A DNA stretch of 46,371 bases from Holdemanella biformis DSM 3989 (GTDB lineage Bacteria; Bacillota_I; Bacilli_A; Erysipelotrichales; Erysipelotrichaceae). The stretch is from assembly GCF_000156655.1 (NCBI RefSeq), contig NZ_DS996839.1, positions 17,357 through 63,727 of the forward strand, written 5' to 3'. Position 1 is the first letter of the stretch. Each line of letters begins with the position of its first letter. The position numbers and the translations under genes are program-made. This document shows positions 36,587 to 43,182 of the stretch, in pieces. The notes beneath the pieces are model-generated. The model did no database searches and had not been told where the DNA came from. It was given only the letters and a program-made list of their open reading frames with translations.

Positions 36587-36615
36587 TTCCTTTCAATAGG
36601 GCGGTTTGCTATAAT
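36587..36615 (+). promoter_or_regulatory. Promoter of the beta-galactosidase gene
   Basis: Extended -10 TGCTATAAT (TATAAT at 36610-36615) with a weak -35 (TTCCTT, 17-bp spacing), 32 bp before the chosen ATG. The first in-frame ATG (36614) overlaps the -10 and cannot be the start. Confidence 0.65.
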
Positions 36616-36646
36616 GAAAGGTACACGAATACAGAGGAGTGATACA

Positions 36647-37363
36647 ATGCGAACACCAGATTTAAACTGGCTAAAAGACTCACGTATCTTTCAAGTCAAC
36701 CGACTACAAGCATACAGTGATCATAAATATACAATTGGAAAAGACAAAAAACCAAGCTCTTTTTCCCTAAACGGAACATGGAAATTCAACCAATCCAAAA
36801 ACTATGATACATGCTTTAAATTCTTCTATAACACAGAATTTAATGATGCCAATTGGAACGACATCCAAGTTCCTGGACACATTCAACTTCAAGGATTTGA
36901 CAACCCCCACTATACAGATGTGACCTACCCATGGGATGGACATGACGTAGTAAAACCAGGACAAATCGATATGGACAAAAACAAAGTCTATCAATACCGT
37001 AAAACATTCGATTGTCCACAAGACTTCATTGGCAATAAACTCATTCTATCCTTTGAAGGTGTTGAATCCAATATCTACGTATGGCTAAATGGTAAATTTA
37101 TCGGATACTCAGAAGATTCCTTTACCCCAAGCCGTTTTGACATCACAAAATATACACAAGAAAAAGATAACGTACTCTGCGTACGCATCTTTCAAAAATG
37201 TACAGGCACATGGCTAGAAGACCAAGACATGTGGCGCTTTAGCGGAATCTTTAGAGATGTCATGATCTACAAACAACCAAATCTTCACATACAAGACTTA
37301 AAGATTGATACAAATATTGATCTAGACACCAAAAAAGTATTCTTACATGCACATGTAAAATGA
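36647..37363 (+). CDS. lacZ: Beta-galactosidase (GH2), N-terminal part up to a frameshift
   Basis: 238 residues from the ATG at 36647 (GAGGAG upstream). This is the sugar-binding jelly-roll domain of a LacZ-type enzyme: RLQAYSDH near the N-terminus, then FSLNGTWKF, YTDVTYPWDG, EGVESNIYVWLNGKFIGYSEDSFTPS and WLEDQDMWRFSGIFRDV. The frame ends at a TGA (37361-37363) inside the immunoglobulin-like domain 2, where no known LacZ family splits. The next frame continues the protein at once. One missing A in an AAAA run explains the break. Confidence 0.9.
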   Translation: MRTPDLNWLKDSRIFQVNRLQAYSDHKYTIGKDKKPSSFSLNGTWKFNQSKNYDTCFKFFYNTEFNDANWNDIQVPGHIQLQGFDNPHYTDVTYPWDGHDVVKPGQIDMDKNKVYQYRKTFDCPQDFIGNKLILSFEGVESNIYVWLNGKFIGYSEDSFTPSRFDITKYTQEKDNVLCVRIFQKCTGTWLEDQDMWRFSGIFRDVMIYKQPNLHIQDLKIDTNIDLDTKKVFLHAHVK

Positions 37364-39543
37364 GCAGTAATGAAAGCCATATACTACAAGCCAAACTATA
37401 CGATCCACAAGGAAATATCGTATGGAATGCCAATATGCAAGACACATTTGAAATACCTGTAGAAAATACAAGTTTTTGGAGTAGTGAATACCCAAACCTA
37501 TACCAATTGGAAATTGTTCTATACGATGCAAACAACGAAATCATTGAAACCATTCAAGAACAAATAGGATTTCGTAAATTCAGCCTCGAATATGGCATTA
37601 TGAAACTCAATGGAAAACGCATCGTATTCCACGGCATCAACCGCCACGAATGGAACGTGAAAACCGGAAGAGCCATTACATATGAACAAATGGAAGAAGA
37701 CATCCATATGCTAAAGGCATTAAACATCAATGCCGTAAGAACATCCCACTATCCAAACAACAGTTATTGGTATAAGTTATGTGACCAATATGGAATCTAT
37801 GTCATTGACGAAATGAATCTAGAAACCCATGGTGCTAATGACATCATCCCACAAAACAAAACCGAATGGACCGATTGTCTATTAGATCGTGCAAGAAGCA
37901 TGTACGAAAGAGATAAAAACCATGCATGCATTTTAATGTGGTCACTAGGAAATGAAGCTGGAAGCGGATCCAACTTTATGATTCTACACGACTACTTCAA
38001 AGAACAAGATGCATCAAGACTTGTACACTATGAAGGCATCACACAAGATCGAACATTTGAAAATGCCAGTGACATTGAATCCAGAATGTATGCCACACCA
38101 CAAAGTGTAAAAGCCTATCTAGAAAGCCATCCAATGAAACCATTTATTCTATGTGAATATATGCACGCCATGGGAAATAGTCTAGGAGGCATGGAAGAAT
38201 ATACAGACCTAGAAGACGAATATGAACAATACCAAGGCGGCTTTGTATGGGACTATGTAGACCAAGCCATTGAAAAAGACGGCAAATACTACTACGGAAA
38301 AGACTTTGACGATTATCCAAACGATTCTAACTTCTGTGGAGACGGTATCCTTCTAGCCAACCGACAAGAAACTGGCAAAAGCCAAGAACTCAAACAACTC
38401 TACAGATATGTCGATATGGAAATCCATTTCGATTCGGTAACCATTAAAAACAAAAACCTATTCTACGACCTAGGTAAAGATACATTTATCTTTGAACTCA
38501 AACGAAATGGACTAGCCATTCAATCCGGCATCTTTAAAACAAGTGTAGAACCAGGCACTACAAAAACAATGCCCGTACAATTTAAACAAATCAATACGCC
38601 AGGCTACTATACAAAAACCATCTACTATAAAACACCACTTGGTATTCAAGCTTTTGACCAACAAGTCTTCGAAGTCAAACAAGACCAACCAAAAGAAAGT
38701 GCAATGCTTGTAGTGGAAGGACAAAATACAATTGGCATTCAATTTATGGACACTGAATATCTATTCGACAAACGAAAAGGCTTAGTATCCATTCAAGTAA
38801 ACGATACAGAATTACTTCAAGAAACACCAAAACCTGTCTTCTACAGAGCCTTAACCGACAATGATCGTGGTGCCAAACAAACTTATGCCAACTGGCTTAA
38901 CGCAAGCCTATTTCAAAATGTAGTTGACTTTAAAATGATACGCAACTCCAAATGCGCACAAATGATCTATACAATTCAACTAGAATCCATTGAAGAAGAA
39001 TGTAAACTCGTCTATACAGTCTACAACAATCAAAGTATTCAAATCCAATTGCACTTAGACAAAAACTCAAAAAGACAAACCCTACCACTATTTGGGATCG
39101 AGTTTGCCCTAAAAGAAACATTTAAAAACTTTGCGTATTTTGGAAAAGGCGAAAAAGACACATATATAGATCGAAATCACGCACTAACCGATTTCTACTC
39201 TGAAAATGTAGATACAAACTACATTCCATACTTAAAACCACAAGAACACGGCAATCATACCGACTGCAAATGGTGCTGCCTATCCAATGAAACAAACACA
39301 TTCAACATCAAAGCAGAAAACATGGAATGTCAAGCCAGCAAATATTCCTTTATGCACTTATATAACGCAAAACACACGTTTGAACTGCCACAAACCCACA
39401 CAACCTATTTAAGAATCACAAAACAACAAATGGGCGTAGGCGGAATCAATAGCTGGGGCGCTAAAGTACAACCCCAATATTTGATTGATCAATCGAAAAA
39501 CCTAGACTTTACATGTACACTTTACATTTCAAAGAAGGATTAA
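37360..39543 (+). CDS. lacZ: Beta-galactosidase (GH2), catalytic and C-terminal part
   Basis: 727 residues, overlapping the upstream part by 4 bp (ATGA). It has the rest of domain 2 (FWSSEYPNLYQLEIVLYD), the TIM barrel with acid/base Glu in LMWSLGNEAGSGS and nucleophile Glu in FILCEYMHAMGNSLGG, and the C-terminal Bgal_small domain (YFGKGEKDTY, and GGINSWGAKVQPQY). Restoring one A would give one 965-residue protein, the usual LacZ size. No ribosome site precedes the ATG, so independent translation is doubtful; -1 slippage or loss of function are the choices. It is a cytoplasmic enzyme hydrolysing lactose and related beta-galactosides. The galE fragment at the window's right edge could serve the same pathway. 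Confidence 0.9.
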   Translation: MSSNESHILQAKLYDPQGNIVWNANMQDTFEIPVENTSFWSSEYPNLYQLEIVLYDANNEIIETIQEQIGFRKFSLEYGIMKLNGKRIVFHGINRHEWNVKTGRAITYEQMEEDIHMLKALNINAVRTSHYPNNSYWYKLCDQYGIYVIDEMNLETHGANDIIPQNKTEWTDCLLDRARSMYERDKNHACILMWSLGNEAGSGSNFMILHDYFKEQDASRLVHYEGITQDRTFENASDIESRMYATPQSVKAYLESHPMKPFILCEYMHAMGNSLGGMEEYTDLEDEYEQYQGGFVWDYVDQAIEKDGKYYYGKDFDDYPNDSNFCGDGILLANRQETGKSQELKQLYRYVDMEIHFDSVTIKNKNLFYDLGKDTFIFELKRNGLAIQSGIFKTSVEPGTTKTMPVQFKQINTPGYYTKTIYYKTPLGIQAFDQQVFEVKQDQPKESAMLVVEGQNTIGIQFMDTEYLFDKRKGLVSIQVNDTELLQETPKPVFYRALTDNDRGAKQTYANWLNASLFQNVVDFKMIRNSKCAQMIYTIQLESIEEECKLVYTVYNNQSIQIQLHLDKNSKRQTLPLFGIEFALKETFKNFAYFGKGEKDTYIDRNHALTDFYSENVDTNYIPYLKPQEHGNHTDCKWCCLSNETNTFNIKAENMECQASKYSFMHLYNAKHTFELPQTHTTYLRITKQQMGVGGINSWGAKVQPQYLIDQSKNLDFTCTLYISKKD

Positions 39544-39558: not shown

Positions 39559-39590
39559 TTACCTTCAAATTTCAAATTTAAAATCAAGTA

Positions 39591-39619
39591 TTGACAACAA
39601 ATTACTATCTAGCTATCAT
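39591..39619 (+). promoter_or_regulatory. Consensus promoter in a gene-free region
   Basis: TTGACA (39591-39596), 17-bp spacer, TATCAT (39614-39619). It is one of the best promoters in the window, yet no coding frame follows; a terminator ends the transcript about 80 nt later. Confidence 0.6.
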
Positions 39620-39625
39620 TTAATC

Positions 39626-39703
39626 ACAAAGAAATCTTTTTCCGGAGTGAGAAAGATATTATTACTTTTTCAAAGAAAAGAAGTTCACGGTGAGCTTCTT
39701 TTT
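39626..39703 (+). ncRNA. Candidate small RNA of about 78 nt
   Basis: Delimited by the consensus promoter at 39591-39619 and by a terminator (AGAAGTTCA / TGAGCTTCT, loop CGG, then TTTTT) at 39679-39703. The 5' half forms a 9-bp hairpin (39634-39642 with 39649-39657, one G-U) whose loop shows CGGAGU, a purine-rich sequence like a ribosome site. A CU-rich or GGAG-binding regulatory RNA is possible. It resembles no RNA family I know, and no short reading frame with a ribosome site is present. Confidence 0.4.
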
Positions 39704-40248
39704 ATCTTATAGTCATTTAGAGTTGTAAAACACCAAAATTATCACTTCCCCAACAAATTCATAATCAAATAATTCTATAAACAGATTTCAAGATTCCTTA
39801 AATGAAATTTAGATTATTTTGTTTTGAAACACAAAAGCCAAAAGACAAATCTAAATGTTACCAAGACAAGAATCAAATATTATAAAAGGTAGGCTTGTGC
39901 CTACCAATTATGCGGACTAAGCGTCCTGATATTTTTTACAAGAACTTTATGCAATATTTATTATCAAAAATCAAAAATCTTTATAAATTATTTTATAGAC
40001 TTTTTTCTTCTCGAAACAGAGGTTGAAATCACCGGTTTAGATTTCTAGTATGTTTATGCTTACATTGTTTTAATTACTTATACTCAACGCAAAATAGGAG
40101 AGACTAAAACAGCCTGCAAACACTTTATAATGGCATTCATCGACTGCACCAACAAATTTCCCCAAACATTTGCAATCAAATTCTAGGGGCTCAGCAGCAA
40201 GCACACCTGCGGCAGTTACAAAATTTTATTAGCCAATCTTAAAATCTC
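39704..40248. other. Gene-free AT-rich region with hairpins
   Basis: No coding frame is supported. Visible structure: a 9-bp inverted repeat ATTTAGATT (39807-39815) / AATCTAAAT (39848-39856), and at 39888-39937 two neighbouring hairpins (GGTAGGC / GCCTACC and GGAC / GTCC) followed by six T residues, preceded by a TATTAT box at 39878-39883. The last could be a very short transcript or a terminator remnant. Nothing else recognised. Confidence 0.35.
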
Positions 40249-40279
40249 TTGCATAATGTTATTCGGTGTGGTATATAAT
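40249..40279 (+). promoter_or_regulatory. Promoter-like element before a second short RNA unit
   Basis: TTGCAT (40249-40254), 17-bp spacer, then TATATAAT (40272-40279) preceded by TGG. It drives a unit that ends in a terminator about 65 nt on. Confidence 0.5.
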
Positions 40280-40285
40280 TGCATA

Positions 40286-40345
40286 AATTGCGGTGGTCGT
40301 CTTCGAACAACACCTAGAAGGAGCCTGATGCGTCGGGTTCTTTTT
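40286..40345 (+). ncRNA. Candidate small RNA of about 60 nt
   Basis: Follows the promoter-like element at 40249-40279. It contains a hairpin built from GGTG-TCG / CGA-CACC (about 40292-40314) and ends in a terminator, GAGCCTGA / TCGGGTTC (two G-U pairs, loop TGCG) with TTTTT at 40341-40345. An AGAAGGAG segment lies between the hairpins without a following reading frame. Base composition is GC-richer than the surroundings, like the adjacent HigBA genes, so both may have come in together. It is convergent with higA. Confidence 0.4.
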
Positions 40346-40400
40346 CTTTTGTCAAAAAATATAGACATTGATTCGAAATTCTCGCTTGAAGAAAAGAAAG

Positions 40401-40426
40401 AAAAACCGCAGACGAAAATTCCTGCG
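40401..40426 (-). terminator. Terminator of the higBA operon
   Basis: Minus-strand CGCAG / CTGCG (10-base loop) followed by GTTTTT, 17 bp beyond the higA stop codon. Confidence 0.6.
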
Positions 40427-40442
40427 ATTCCTATCTTACTCT

Positions 40443-40739
40443 TTACATTTTATTCTTTGTTGGCATCGGAACAAACTCCAGCTTTAATTGCATCCCTAAT
40501 CCATGAGCAAGTTTTTTCACCATACTCAGACTGGGATTTCTTGTTCCATTCTCAATCCGGCTTATATCTGCCTGCGTTATTCCGGTTTTAGCTGATAAAT
40601 CTTTCTGTGTCATATTCTGTTGCACTCTTGCATCAATCATCGCCTGGATAATATCATATTCCGGTTGCAATGCATCATATTCTGCCTTTACCTCCGGATT
40701 CTGCAATGCTCTTTTCTTATAATCTTTATAGCTACTCAT
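40443..40739 (-). CDS. higA: HigA-type antitoxin, XRE-family DNA-binding protein
   Basis: 98 residues from the ATG at 40739, with GGAGG 7 nt upstream and an 8-bp overlap with higB; two earlier ATGs have worse spacing. Residues about 37-90 are a Cro/C1-type helix-turn-helix (MTQKDLSAKTGITQADISRI, ENGTRNPSL). The N-terminal part has the LQPEYDIIQAMIDAR helix that contacts the toxin in this family. It should neutralise the toxin encoded just before it and repress their shared promoter by binding the inverted repeat at 41111-41132. The toxin-first order is typical of higBA. Codon use is more GC-rich than the neighbours, suggesting transfer. Confidence 0.9.
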   Translation of the reverse strand: MSSYKDYKKRALQNPEVKAEYDALQPEYDIIQAMIDARVQQNMTQKDLSAKTGITQADISRIENGTRNPSLSMVKKLAHGLGMQLKLEFVPMPTKNKM

Positions 40740-41082
40740 TGCCATACCTCCGTTCATAATCTGATTTATACTTCTTTGCCAGTTCTTTTTCTGCCTTTGG
40801 TGTTTTCTGCGATTTCTTTATAAATCCATTAGTCAGTACCGCCTTCTTTCCTACAATAAAGAAATACAGTACTCTTGTAATATCTGATCCCTGCTTGGTG
40901 CGAAGCTCAAATATTCCATTTTCCAATGGTTTTGAATATGGCTCACGAAGCAATGGACCGTTCATTTCCAGTAAGTCAATTGTCCGCAATGTTTTTGCCA
41001 GCAACTTAGGCTCCAGGGAATCTAATAGTTCCTGCACAGGGCATCTTCCATCTTCTGTATCATATAAAATGATCTCGTACAT
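40732..41082 (-). CDS. higB: HigB-type toxin, RelE/ParE superfamily (phage Gp49-like)
   Basis: 116 residues. GRCPVQELLDSLEPKLLAKTLRTIDLLEMNG, then the PLENGIFELRTKQGSDITRVLYFF core and KKAVLTNGFIKKSQKTPKAEKELA, are the Gp49-like (HigB) pattern, with the basic residues of the RNA-cutting site (Arg in ELRTK and TRV, Lys in FIKKSQKTP). These toxins cleave mRNA on the ribosome when freed of antitoxin. The ATG at 41082 has AAGGAGC upstream, behind a near-consensus promoter. All hallmark residues look intact, so the pair is probably functional. Confidence 0.9.
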   Translation of the reverse strand: MYEIILYDTEDGRCPVQELLDSLEPKLLAKTLRTIDLLEMNGPLLREPYSKPLENGIFELRTKQGSDITRVLYFFIVGKKAVLTNGFIKKSQKTPKAEKELAKKYKSDYERRYGNE

Positions 41083-41108
41083 TAGTATGCTCCTTCCTCT
41101 TTATAATC

Positions 41109-41137
41109 ATAATATGTCGCATTCAACATATTGTCAA
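41109..41137 (-). promoter_or_regulatory. higBA promoter with an internal operator palindrome
   Basis: Minus-strand TTGACA (41132-41137), 17-bp spacer, TATTAT (41109-41114). Between and overlapping the two boxes lies AATATGT-N8-ACATATT (41111-41132), a perfect 7-bp inverted repeat. Its position suits HigA autorepression. Confidence 0.75.
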
Positions 41138-41184
41138 GGTAATTCCAAACACTTTTTCATCCTAAAAAATCGATTTAAAGTATC

Positions 41185-41204
41185 AGTGAATTGGTCACTT
41201 TTTT
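41185..41204 (+). terminator. Isolated plus-strand terminator-like hairpin
   Basis: AGTGA / TCACT (loop ATTGG) followed by six T residues. No plus-strand gene ends here; it may stop antisense transcription or be a remnant. Confidence 0.45.
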
Positions 41205-41495
41205 AATAACTTACAATTATTCGTGTTTTATGCTAAATTATAAGTCGAGATAGAAATATCTTTAGTGAACAAGCACTATAAGCTGAAGACAATAGAAAGT
41301 CGGTAAAACATCCTAATCATTGTTGCTAATAGCGATGAGCTGACAGCCAGAATAAAACTTGCTTAAAGATTATACTGATGTCTTAGAACATCTTTTTTAT
41401 GCGATTTTATGCTTAATTTTCAAAATTCTCAAGATAATCAAGTCTTTGATTTACACCTTTTTTTTGTATATTACATGTAGAGATAAAAAAATTAG
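41205..41495. other. Gene-free region upstream of the higBA promoter
   Basis: No gene supported. A plus-strand open frame of 63 codons from 41359 is low-complexity and hydrophobic (Phe/Ile/Lys-rich) with no ribosome site, so it is probably chance in AT-rich DNA. Confidence 0.35.
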
Positions 41496-41624
41496 CCACT
41501 CCAATATCCAACCGATTACTCAATCGTTTCAAAGAATAAGCGGGATATAAGTGAAGAGCAAGTCGATATTATTGTGTTCGCTTATATCGATTGGACCCAC
41601 TTTTTTATGCAATTTTCAAAATAA
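41496..41624 (+). pseudogene. Possible remnant of a protein C-terminus
   Basis: Forty-two codons between two stops, without a start codon, encode a plausible soluble stretch (SKNKRDISEEQVDIIVFAYI, then DWTHFF and a stop). The mixed charged/hydrophobic pattern looks more like real coding than the surrounding AT-rich DNA. I cannot name a family. The DNA also contains an 11-bp imperfect inverted repeat (ATATAAGTGAA / TTCGCTTATAT), which may be a coincidence. Confidence 0.25.
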
Positions 41625-41635
41625 ACTAATCATTA

Positions 41636-41664
41636 ATGAAATCTTTGATAAAACATGCTATTAT
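41636..41664 (+). promoter_or_regulatory. Promoter of a pseudoknot RNA
   Basis: ATGAAA (41636-41641, 4 of 6 matches to TTGACA), 17-bp spacer, extended -10 TGCTATTAT (TATTAT at 41659-41664). It points into the structured RNA at 41671-41807. Confidence 0.55.
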
Positions 41665-41670
41665 GACAGT

Positions 41671-41807
41671 ACGAAAAAAGAAATATCTATTTTGATAGTG
41701 GTAATTCTTTAATAGAACCGATAAAGTTTGGCGATTCCCTGCCGAAGACGTTGAAACGGGAGACGATAAAGTGATATAGAGGAGGCATTGCTTCCTCTAT
41801 TGTTTTT
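41671..41807 (+). ncRNA. Candidate type III antitoxin-like RNA (45-nt pseudoknot unit plus terminator)
   Basis: Two copies of GATAAAGT lie exactly 45 nt apart (41720-41727 and 41765-41772). The unit between them can fold as an H-type pseudoknot: GGC (41730-41732) pairs with GCC (41741-41743), and UCCC in that loop (41736-41739) pairs with GGGA (41758-41761). A terminator (AGAGGAGGC / GCTTCCTCT, then TGTTTTT) follows at 41778-41807. Promoter, pseudoknot unit flanked by repeated A-rich sites, then terminator is the plan of type III antitoxins such as ToxI and CptI, whose toxin cuts at the repeated site. Only one full unit is present, and no ToxN/CptN-like toxin follows. The 65-codon minus-strand frame here is judged spurious. 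Confidence 0.45.
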
Positions 41808-41932
41808 ATGCCAACGACTTTAAAAGTGGCATTAATACATATATTTGCAGAATAAGAATCTAATGAATTGCCTTTTAGTTTCACACAACTAGAAGAATTA
41901 GTGTATGTTTATTAAGTAAGAAAATGATATAA

Positions 41933-42284
41933 ATGACTAAACAGATTTATTTTGAAAATACTCCAGAATATGGAGATTTGTATATTGATTATATTTTTCA
42001 TTACGATGATCAGCCTATACTATTTACCTTAAAAGATGATTTTTCAAATTTATACTTATGCGTATGTTATGAATTATGCGAATACCAAAAATGGTTTATC
42101 GCAAATATTGATTTTAATGATTTGAAAGAAATGAATGACAACAAGAAGAGTGTTCTAGAATCATTTTTGAAAAACCAATCTCTATTACAAGCTCAAAGAA
42201 AAAGATTTCTATTTAGAAACAGATTATGAAGAACAAGAAAAATTTAATGCATTTTATGCACAAGAAGATCATTATAACAATTAA
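41933..42284 (+). pseudogene. Frameshifted small gene of unknown function
   Basis: The first frame (MTKQIYFENTPEYGDLYIDY and on to about residue 83) reads as a compact alpha/beta protein with the run FSNLYLCVCYELCEYQKWFI, and then loses sense. From about 42180 the frame shifted by one base continues sensibly (YYKLKEKDFYLETDYEEQEK, then FNAFYAQEDHYNN and TAA at 42282-42284). One extra base near 42175-42190 would explain this. The joined protein would be about 116 residues. No ribosome site of quality precedes the ATG. I do not recognise a family with confidence. It follows the pseudoknot RNA but does not look like a ToxN-type toxin. Confidence 0.6.
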
Positions 42285-42341
42285 CCATTCTTATGAAGTC
42301 AGATTCCACAAGGATGCCTTTTTATATTATTTACGCTACAC

Positions 42342-42411
42342 AAAAAAAGCCTGGCCTCCATATCAATCAAGTTGAGGTAGGATTCCAGGGTGCGCACCTC
42401 ACACCTTCGTC
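42342..42411 (-). ncRNA. Candidate small RNA of about 70 nt
   Basis: A minus-strand extended -10 TGATACAAT (TACAAT at 42418-42423) lies 7 nt before the proposed 5' end. The RNA ends in CCTGG...CCAGGC (42385-42389 with 42350-42354) with an inner CCTC/GAGG stem, followed by seven T residues (42342-42348). A GGTGC/GCACC palindrome sits in the 5' half. The whole is clearly GC-richer than its flanks, as expected of a structured RNA. It could be a free small RNA or the structured 3' end of a message for the short peptide at 42453-42530. I know no matching family. Confidence 0.5.
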
Positions 42412-42452
42412 GAAGATATTGTATCACATTTTTTAAAGTGTTTAATCAATAT

Positions 42453-42530
42453 TCAACCCTTTTTACCATCCTTTAGAAAACCAATCGCAATCATGACTAT
42501 ACCTATTGGAAAGGCTGCAATAATACTCAC
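42453..42530 (-). CDS. Possible short hydrophobic peptide, 25 aa
   Basis: A GTG-initiated frame gives SIIAAFPIGIVMIAIGFLKD followed by GKKG: one membrane segment and a basic tail. Size and pattern recall Fst/Ldr-type type I toxin peptides. No ribosome site is visible before the GTG, which is the main argument against it. The candidate small RNA at 42342-42411 lies directly downstream on the same strand. Confidence 0.25.
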   Translation of the reverse strand: MSIIAAFPIGIVMIAIGFLKDGKKG

Positions 42531-42701
42531 ACTATGTAAGTAATTTATTGAACTTTGTGAATGAATTGTAATCTTTTATATAGCATTTCATCTTCTTTTA
42601 ATTCATGATGACATTAATGTAATTGAATCAAAGCTTGTTGCATATGAAAATATGACAACAGGACAGATTTTTTATTATATTTATTTACACGTTTCATAAA
42701 T

Positions 42702-42737
42702 ATACGTATTGAATATATACGTATATTTTAATATACT
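42702..42737 (+). promoter_or_regulatory. Promoter of the HicB-like gene with two palindromic operators
   Basis: TTGAAT (42709-42714), 17-bp spacer, TATACT (42732-42737). The palindrome ATACGTAT occurs twice, 15 bp apart, at 42702-42709 (touching the -35) and 42717-42724 (inside the spacer). This placement is expected for autorepression by a dimeric ribbon-helix-helix or helix-turn-helix protein such as HicB. Confidence 0.65.
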
Positions 42738-42759
42738 ATTTAAAAAGGAGGCAAACAAT

Positions 42760-43182
42760 ATGCTATCAATTTATCCAGCATGTTTCTTTGAAGAAGAAAA
42801 TCATTATTCCGTTATTTTTCCAGACTTCAATTCCCTTTCCACTTGCGGAGATTCTCTACAAGACGCTATGGAAATGGCCATTGATTGTCTAGCCGGTGCA
42901 TTATTCAGTGCAAAACTAGACAATGAAGATAGTCCAATTCCTTCAAAGTTAGAAGAAATTAATCCAACACAAATCGCATCTGAACTTGAATTCGAATTTA
43001 AACAATCTTTTGTCACCCTTGTATCTGTTGATGTTGAAGAATATGCGAAAACCCATTTCAACAAGGCTATCAAGAAAACACTCACAATTCCCGAATGGTT
43101 AAACAAAGAAGCCATGAGTAAGAAAATCAATTTTTCCCAAGTACTTCAAGAAGCATTAATTGCCAAATTACACTCCAATTAA
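42760..43182 (+). CDS. HicB-like antitoxin, apparently without HicA
   Basis: 140 residues from the ATG at 42760 (AGGAGG 9 nt upstream; an earlier in-frame ATG has no ribosome site). The N-terminal half has the partial RNase-H fold of HicB: FEEENHYSVIFPDFNSLSTC, GDSLQDAMEMAIDCLAG. The C-terminal part (TIPEWLNKEAMSKKINFSQVLQEALIAKL) fits a ribbon-helix-helix DNA-binding segment. HicB proteins block the HicA mRNA-cleaving toxin and repress their operon. No HicA-like gene lies on either side, so this is an orphan that may act purely as a repressor, or counter a HicA encoded elsewhere. Confidence 0.85.
   Translation: MLSIYPACFFEEENHYSVIFPDFNSLSTCGDSLQDAMEMAIDCLAGALFSAKLDNEDSPIPSKLEEINPTQIASELEFEFKQSFVTLVSVDVEEYAKTHFNKAIKKTLTIPEWLNKEAMSKKINFSQVLQEALIAKLHSN

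Follow-up and report, generated by a model that had tools for sequence, protein, structure and literature searches.

Positions 41636–41808 of the window, the whole 46,371-nt stretch of DNA analyzed here, most probably (we put this at about 85%) contain an orphan RNA gene of the ToxI/antiQ type, in which a ToxIN locus (ToxN/AbiQ, type III) that appears to have lost its toxin survives as the antitoxin, the terminator and probably the promoter. The sequence GATAAAGT occurs twice on the forward strand, at 41720–41727 and at 41765–41772, at a spacing of exactly 45 nt, and the region 41720–41772 comprises a single 45-nt unit that can form an H-type pseudoknot and has a strong terminator downstream, as an earlier sequence-only reading had described. 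The two copies are A-rich, processing-type borders on either side of the unit, like those of other ToxI units in the order, and are the expected cut sites; the locus holds one full unit and the beginning of another border. Stem 1 (UUGGC/GCCGA, 41728–41745, loop GAUUCCCU) has a core in which GGC at 41730–32 pairs with GCC at 41741–43, and can be extended through U41729.G41744 and U41728-A41745. Stem 2 (41735–41762), in which UUCCC at 41735–39 meets GGGAG at 41758–62 to close the pseudoknot, has a core of UCCC (41736–39) paired with GGGA (41758–61), extendable through U41735.G41762. Loop 1 is GAU, with 2–3 nt between the stems. Loop 2, GAAGACGUUGAAAC at 41744–57, is unusually long, at 14 nt counted from the 3-bp stem 1 core as against 7–12 nt in most ToxI/antiQ units, and this explains the 45-nt length of the unit.

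An intrinsic, Rho-independent terminator with an 11-bp stem (41776–41800) and a T-run follows at 41776–41808 (+), as expected of a ToxI/antiQ RNA and in the same position as in the related loci L082, L098, L110 and pGTC3 described below. Terminator-like sites in the 1-kb region are well above chance (4, compared with 0.2 ± 0.5 in shuffled sequence), and the unit is intact in all its core pairs, its two borders and its terminator. The extended -10 promoter of the sequence-only reading can be found, as TG and TATTAT within the site ATGAAA-17 nt-TATTAT at 41636–41664 (+), but it is a weak match identified by consensus, and promoter-like sites are no more numerous in the region than chance allows (9, compared with 6.1 ± 2.6). 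Given where this site stands, 41670–41719 (+) is the probable 5’ leader. Immediately upstream, 41526–41624 (+) encodes a protein-like fragment, VSKNKRDISEEQVDIIVFAYIDWTHFFMQFSK, that has no Pfam match.

A type-III-antitoxin descriptor consisting of AAA, stem 1, stem 2, pseudoknot, AAA and terminator matches this locus and no other on either strand of the 46-kb window. With the terminator required, it has no match in 100 shuffles or in natural control sequence totaling 193 kb, and it is to be regarded as strict, since among 50 genuine type III loci it recovers only 7. Because the descriptor was composed after the unit had been seen, a covariance model that excludes the window unit provides a fairer, independent test. 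Such a model (R1), built from 16 ToxI units of neighbors, ranks the window unit first in the window at 21.9 bits (E 0.0058), a score that is moderate alone, as ~0.3 chance matches per genome are expected at that level. R1 matches within genes (L073, L076, L081) were set aside as chance. A second model, R2, includes the units of the window, L082 and L098, so its scores for these three are no evidence, although those for G117, G022 and G031 are. No Rfam family matches the RNA at its gathering score and no tRNA is found. When plasmids, phages and 60 relatives are searched at the DNA level, the window unit has only chance matches, and one match (L002) was discarded because it falls within a protein gene. 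The exact unit pattern is present, among 295 genomes of the order, in the host genome only, and pattern matches in viral contigs are exclusively GC-rich and unrelated. A fortuitous arrangement with no RNA gene behind it might be suspected from the shortness of the element, the unremarkable number of promoter sites and the R1 score considered by itself; we regard it as extremely improbable, given the absence of descriptor-plus-terminator matches in 100 shuffles, the homologous arrays with a similar loop 2, and covariation.

The closest relatives of the unit are found in G184 (L082), at L098 and in G117 (L110), all with a likewise long loop 2 of 13–14 nt. The first, from the R1 scan of the order, contains three units in tandem, and their loop 2 reads AAAGACUACGAAAC. 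The second, from a pattern search across 85,000 genomes, is a comparable locus, again of three units in tandem, in which loop 2 reads AAAGACGUUGAAAC; 13 of the 14 loop 2 bases of the window are identical in its unit 2. The third is a single-unit relative (R2 E 2.9e-10), and R2 additionally identifies units adjoining toxins in G022 and G031. Comparison of the window unit with L082 and L098 reveals that three of the seven core base pairs have changed on both sides with pairing kept: one is the third core pair of stem 1 (U-A to C-G) and two lie in stem 2. Across seven aligned rows of window, L082 and L098 units, every core pair holds except in one cell, and the true register pairs at 98%, which none of the slid registers (20–57%) comes near. 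The H-type pseudoknot is therefore retained through compensatory change, whose absence the sequence-only reading had named as grounds for abandoning its interpretation.

Across the order, 48 of 196 genomes encode PF13958 toxins, and the antitoxin repeats that accompany them are readable, although some repeats at L013 and L014 cannot be read because of runs of N in or near these loci. ToxIN antitoxins of the order (L027, L044) share the core GGYGAUUCCCURCC...GGGAG, from which L046 deviates at one stem 1 base. The L027 and L044 units (G051, G056) read AGGUGAUUCCCUACC...GGGAG compared with UGGCGAUUCCCUGCC...GGGAG in the window; the stem 1 loop is identical and stem 1 differs by the U-A to C-G exchange. 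Single-unit antitoxins beside intact toxins also occur in the order (L030, L040, L043). Among the intact toxin loci found, none has precisely this 14-nt loop 2.

Assignment to a family depends on a chain of homology from the window through L098 and L082 to a plasmid. Between the L098 array and the antitoxin array of Enterococcus faecalis plasmid pGTC3 there is a blastn match (E 1e-10), and the latter array belongs to an intact ToxIN locus in which an AbiQ/ToxN toxin (Pfam ToxN 143.5 bits; PADLOC AbiQ 5e-29) begins 26 nt beyond the match. The window RNA is thus homologous, indirectly and via L098, to an array that immediately precedes a PF13958 toxin, and on this basis the window RNA is classified from its sequence as a ToxI/antiQ-type antitoxin and not as CptI. 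Like the ToxI/antiQ RNAs of ToxIN/AbiQ systems, it has A-rich borders, an H-type pseudoknot with a GG-CC stem 1 and a CCC/GGG-type stem 2, and a terminator straight after; it differs in comprising one full 45-nt unit with a longer loop 2 and in having no toxin gene. The sequence-only reading had raised the possibility of a CptI-like antitoxin, and there is a resemblance to Eubacterium rectale CptI, which is 45 nt long with a 1-nt loop 1 and CptN as partner (PMC4627078): the length and H-type pseudoknot are shared, as is the (A)AAGUUU start, and the border is near-identical. CptI identity is nevertheless very unlikely and was rejected, as loop 1 of the window is 2–3 nt instead of 1 nt, and all toxins or toxin remnants found beside related units are ToxN/AbiQ (PF13958) rather than CptN.

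The toxin itself is missing. A complete ToxIN locus has a ToxN-family gene directly downstream of the antitoxin; at this locus, the ToxN profile detects neither gene nor remnant within 1,200 nt downstream of the RNA. Across the region where the toxin should start, 41811–41932 (+), the profile stays at background, and a C-terminal ToxN remnant suggested by eye (ESNELPFSFTQLEELVYVY, ~41860–41915) was discarded at <= -0.4 bits, within background. The host genome has one ToxN, at L014, which lies on a separate contig and is accompanied by a different antitoxin. Three sister loci provide evidence of how the toxin may have been lost. At L075 (G100), L098 and L110 (G117), the antitoxin terminator is followed by only the C-terminus of ToxN, scoring 34.4, 24.5 and 24.4 bits, respectively, compared with 10.6 bits for the best of ~9,000 control frames. 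Toxin loss is directly visible in the DNA of these three loci; at the window locus, where no ToxN remnant is detectable, it is inferred from them, and that locus would be one step beyond sisters holding only the C-terminus.

The nearest open reading frame downstream of the RNA (41933–42229, +; 98 aa) is DUF6575-like and probably frameshifted near its end. Its Pfam DUF6575 match (E 0.01) is under the curated cut-off, but BLASTP relates it at 4e-07 to a DUF6575 protein at L007 (G347). In its other frame the gene continues as ...YLETDYEEQEKFNAFYAQEDHYNN (41933–42282, +). The open reading frame is unrelated to ToxN and nothing links it to the RNA; it has no plasmid, phage or viral relatives, and a single family member occurs among the 247 class genomes searched. 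The sequence-only reading had also raised the possibility that the RNA is half of an undescribed pair, and a live two-part system with this gene as a new toxin could be imagined, as it is the next same-strand gene behind the terminator and a DUF6575 protein acts as an anti-phage system in E. coli (PMC9519451). Such a system is hard to credit, however. The gene starts ~120 nt past the terminator, compared with mostly 10–40 nt in true loci, and its frame is broken; the sole class relative, in G347, overlaps a small upstream open reading frame, with no repeat RNA noticed alongside on inspection of the open reading frames; and no examined relative of the RNA adjoins such a gene. An antitoxin RNA of a single full unit with A-rich borders and without its toxin, as the sequence-only reading had proposed in the first place, is the interpretation that the relatives and the downstream toxin absence support.

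Antitoxins without toxins recur across the order. The RNA models identify about two dozen antitoxin loci, of which ~13 have a full-length ToxN behind them and two (G085, G097) a ToxN interrupted by in-frame stops. About ten have no ToxN or only its C-terminus: the window, G184/L098, G117, G100, G043, G064, G200, G244, G049 and G056. The proportion of orphans is rough, as the search covered the ToxI subgroup described by R1, and the scores in G043, G064 and G200 are weak (E 0.002–0.06 per genome), resting partly on the following hairpin. Some orphans are well preserved, and some resemble antitoxins of intact loci. First, L136 (G244:C6:199370–199666) contains eight ToxI-type units and a terminator with no toxin, and its next gene is convergent. 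Second, L137 (G049:C52:43346) is an orphan array of two units, one of them nearly identical to the antitoxin that G056 carries in an intact ToxIN (L009). Loop 2 of the second L137 unit is enlarged by a possible hairpin insertion. Third, a single contig of G056 (C112) carries an intact ToxIN (L044, at 28340) and, at a distance of 25 kb, a lone orphan unit (L138, at 2735) that is of the same antitoxin type and has the same terminator. Leftover or stand-alone antidotes seem to be common in this group, as close relatives show the same toxin loss.

If the window RNA gene is active, transcription would run from the promoter-like site (last base 41664) as far as the terminator, and the transcript is predicted to adopt the H-type pseudoknot fold. 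Should the cell contain a ToxN with the matching specificity, this toxin would be expected to cleave the RNA at its A-rich borders, and the 45-nt unit could then bind and inhibit it. No matching toxin follows the RNA in its genome, so today it may be a relic undergoing decay or else an antidote to ToxIN elements that enter the cell. A single CptI unit sufficed against CptN (PMC4627078). For AbiQ, antiQ constructs with 1.8 repeats are functional and those with 0.8 repeats are not (PMC5086642), so the one unit in the window may be insufficient.

It is plausible, if somewhat short of an even chance, that the window RNA is a maintained, working antidote, a lone antitoxin that neutralizes ToxN arriving on plasmids, phages or islands (anti-addiction). 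The intact pairs, borders and terminator of the unit point in this direction, as do the frequency of toxin-less arrays in the order, some of them as well preserved as the eight units of G244 (L136), and the correspondence of orphan units to antitoxins of intact loci in related genomes (L137 with L009, L138 with L044). These well-preserved arrays and matches favor an antidote role for at least some orphans. There is precedent in the toxin-less pseudo-ToxI of phage phiTE (PMC3475682), likewise a ToxI-like repeat; however, that element is phage-borne and its wild-type locus has 1.5 repeats, encodes no full unit and needs expansion (PMC3475682), whereas the window unit is complete and chromosomal. 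Orphan type II antitoxins and anti-addiction modules similarly involve an antitoxin retained after toxin loss, although in the window the antitoxin is an RNA. On the other hand, neutral decay also predicts that the toxin is lost first, the reverse order being harmful, and the intact ToxN of the host genome (L014) carries a different antitoxin.

A broader proposal, that stand-alone ToxI-type RNAs form a maintained class of chromosomal antidotes in the order against incoming ToxIN, a bacterial counterpart of phage pseudo-ToxI, is tentative and on balance rather doubtful. A limited search of the open literature found no report of chromosomal orphan type III antitoxin RNAs. Type III surveys overlook toxin-less antitoxin RNAs because their searches begin from the toxin, and Rfam does not call the window RNA either. 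If kept by selection, such RNA antidotes would determine which plasmids, islands and ToxIN-dependent defenses can live in a cell.

The orphan RNA lies within a variable stretch of 3.2 kb and adjoins a second antitoxin bereft of its toxin. The stretch is considered variable because sequence corresponding to 39562–42738 is absent from the same-genus genome G001, where a HicA-HicB pair comes directly after LacZ (Pfam match of HicA at E 4.9e-09). In the window, 42739–43182 encodes a HicB-like antitoxin from which HicA has gone, with the promoter-like sequence upstream retained (compared with L135, 3254–3938, in G001). An apparently intact HigB-like (Gp49) toxin with an HTH antitoxin is also present in the 3.2-kb stretch, at 40443–41082 (-), and the placement of the RNA in a region of other toxin–antitoxin parts, which the sequence-only reading had pointed out, is borne out by these two loci. 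Further upstream, a LacZ-type beta-galactosidase that is intact in G001 (965 aa) is present as two open reading frames with a 4-nt overlap (36614–39543), reflecting either a frameshift or an assembly error.
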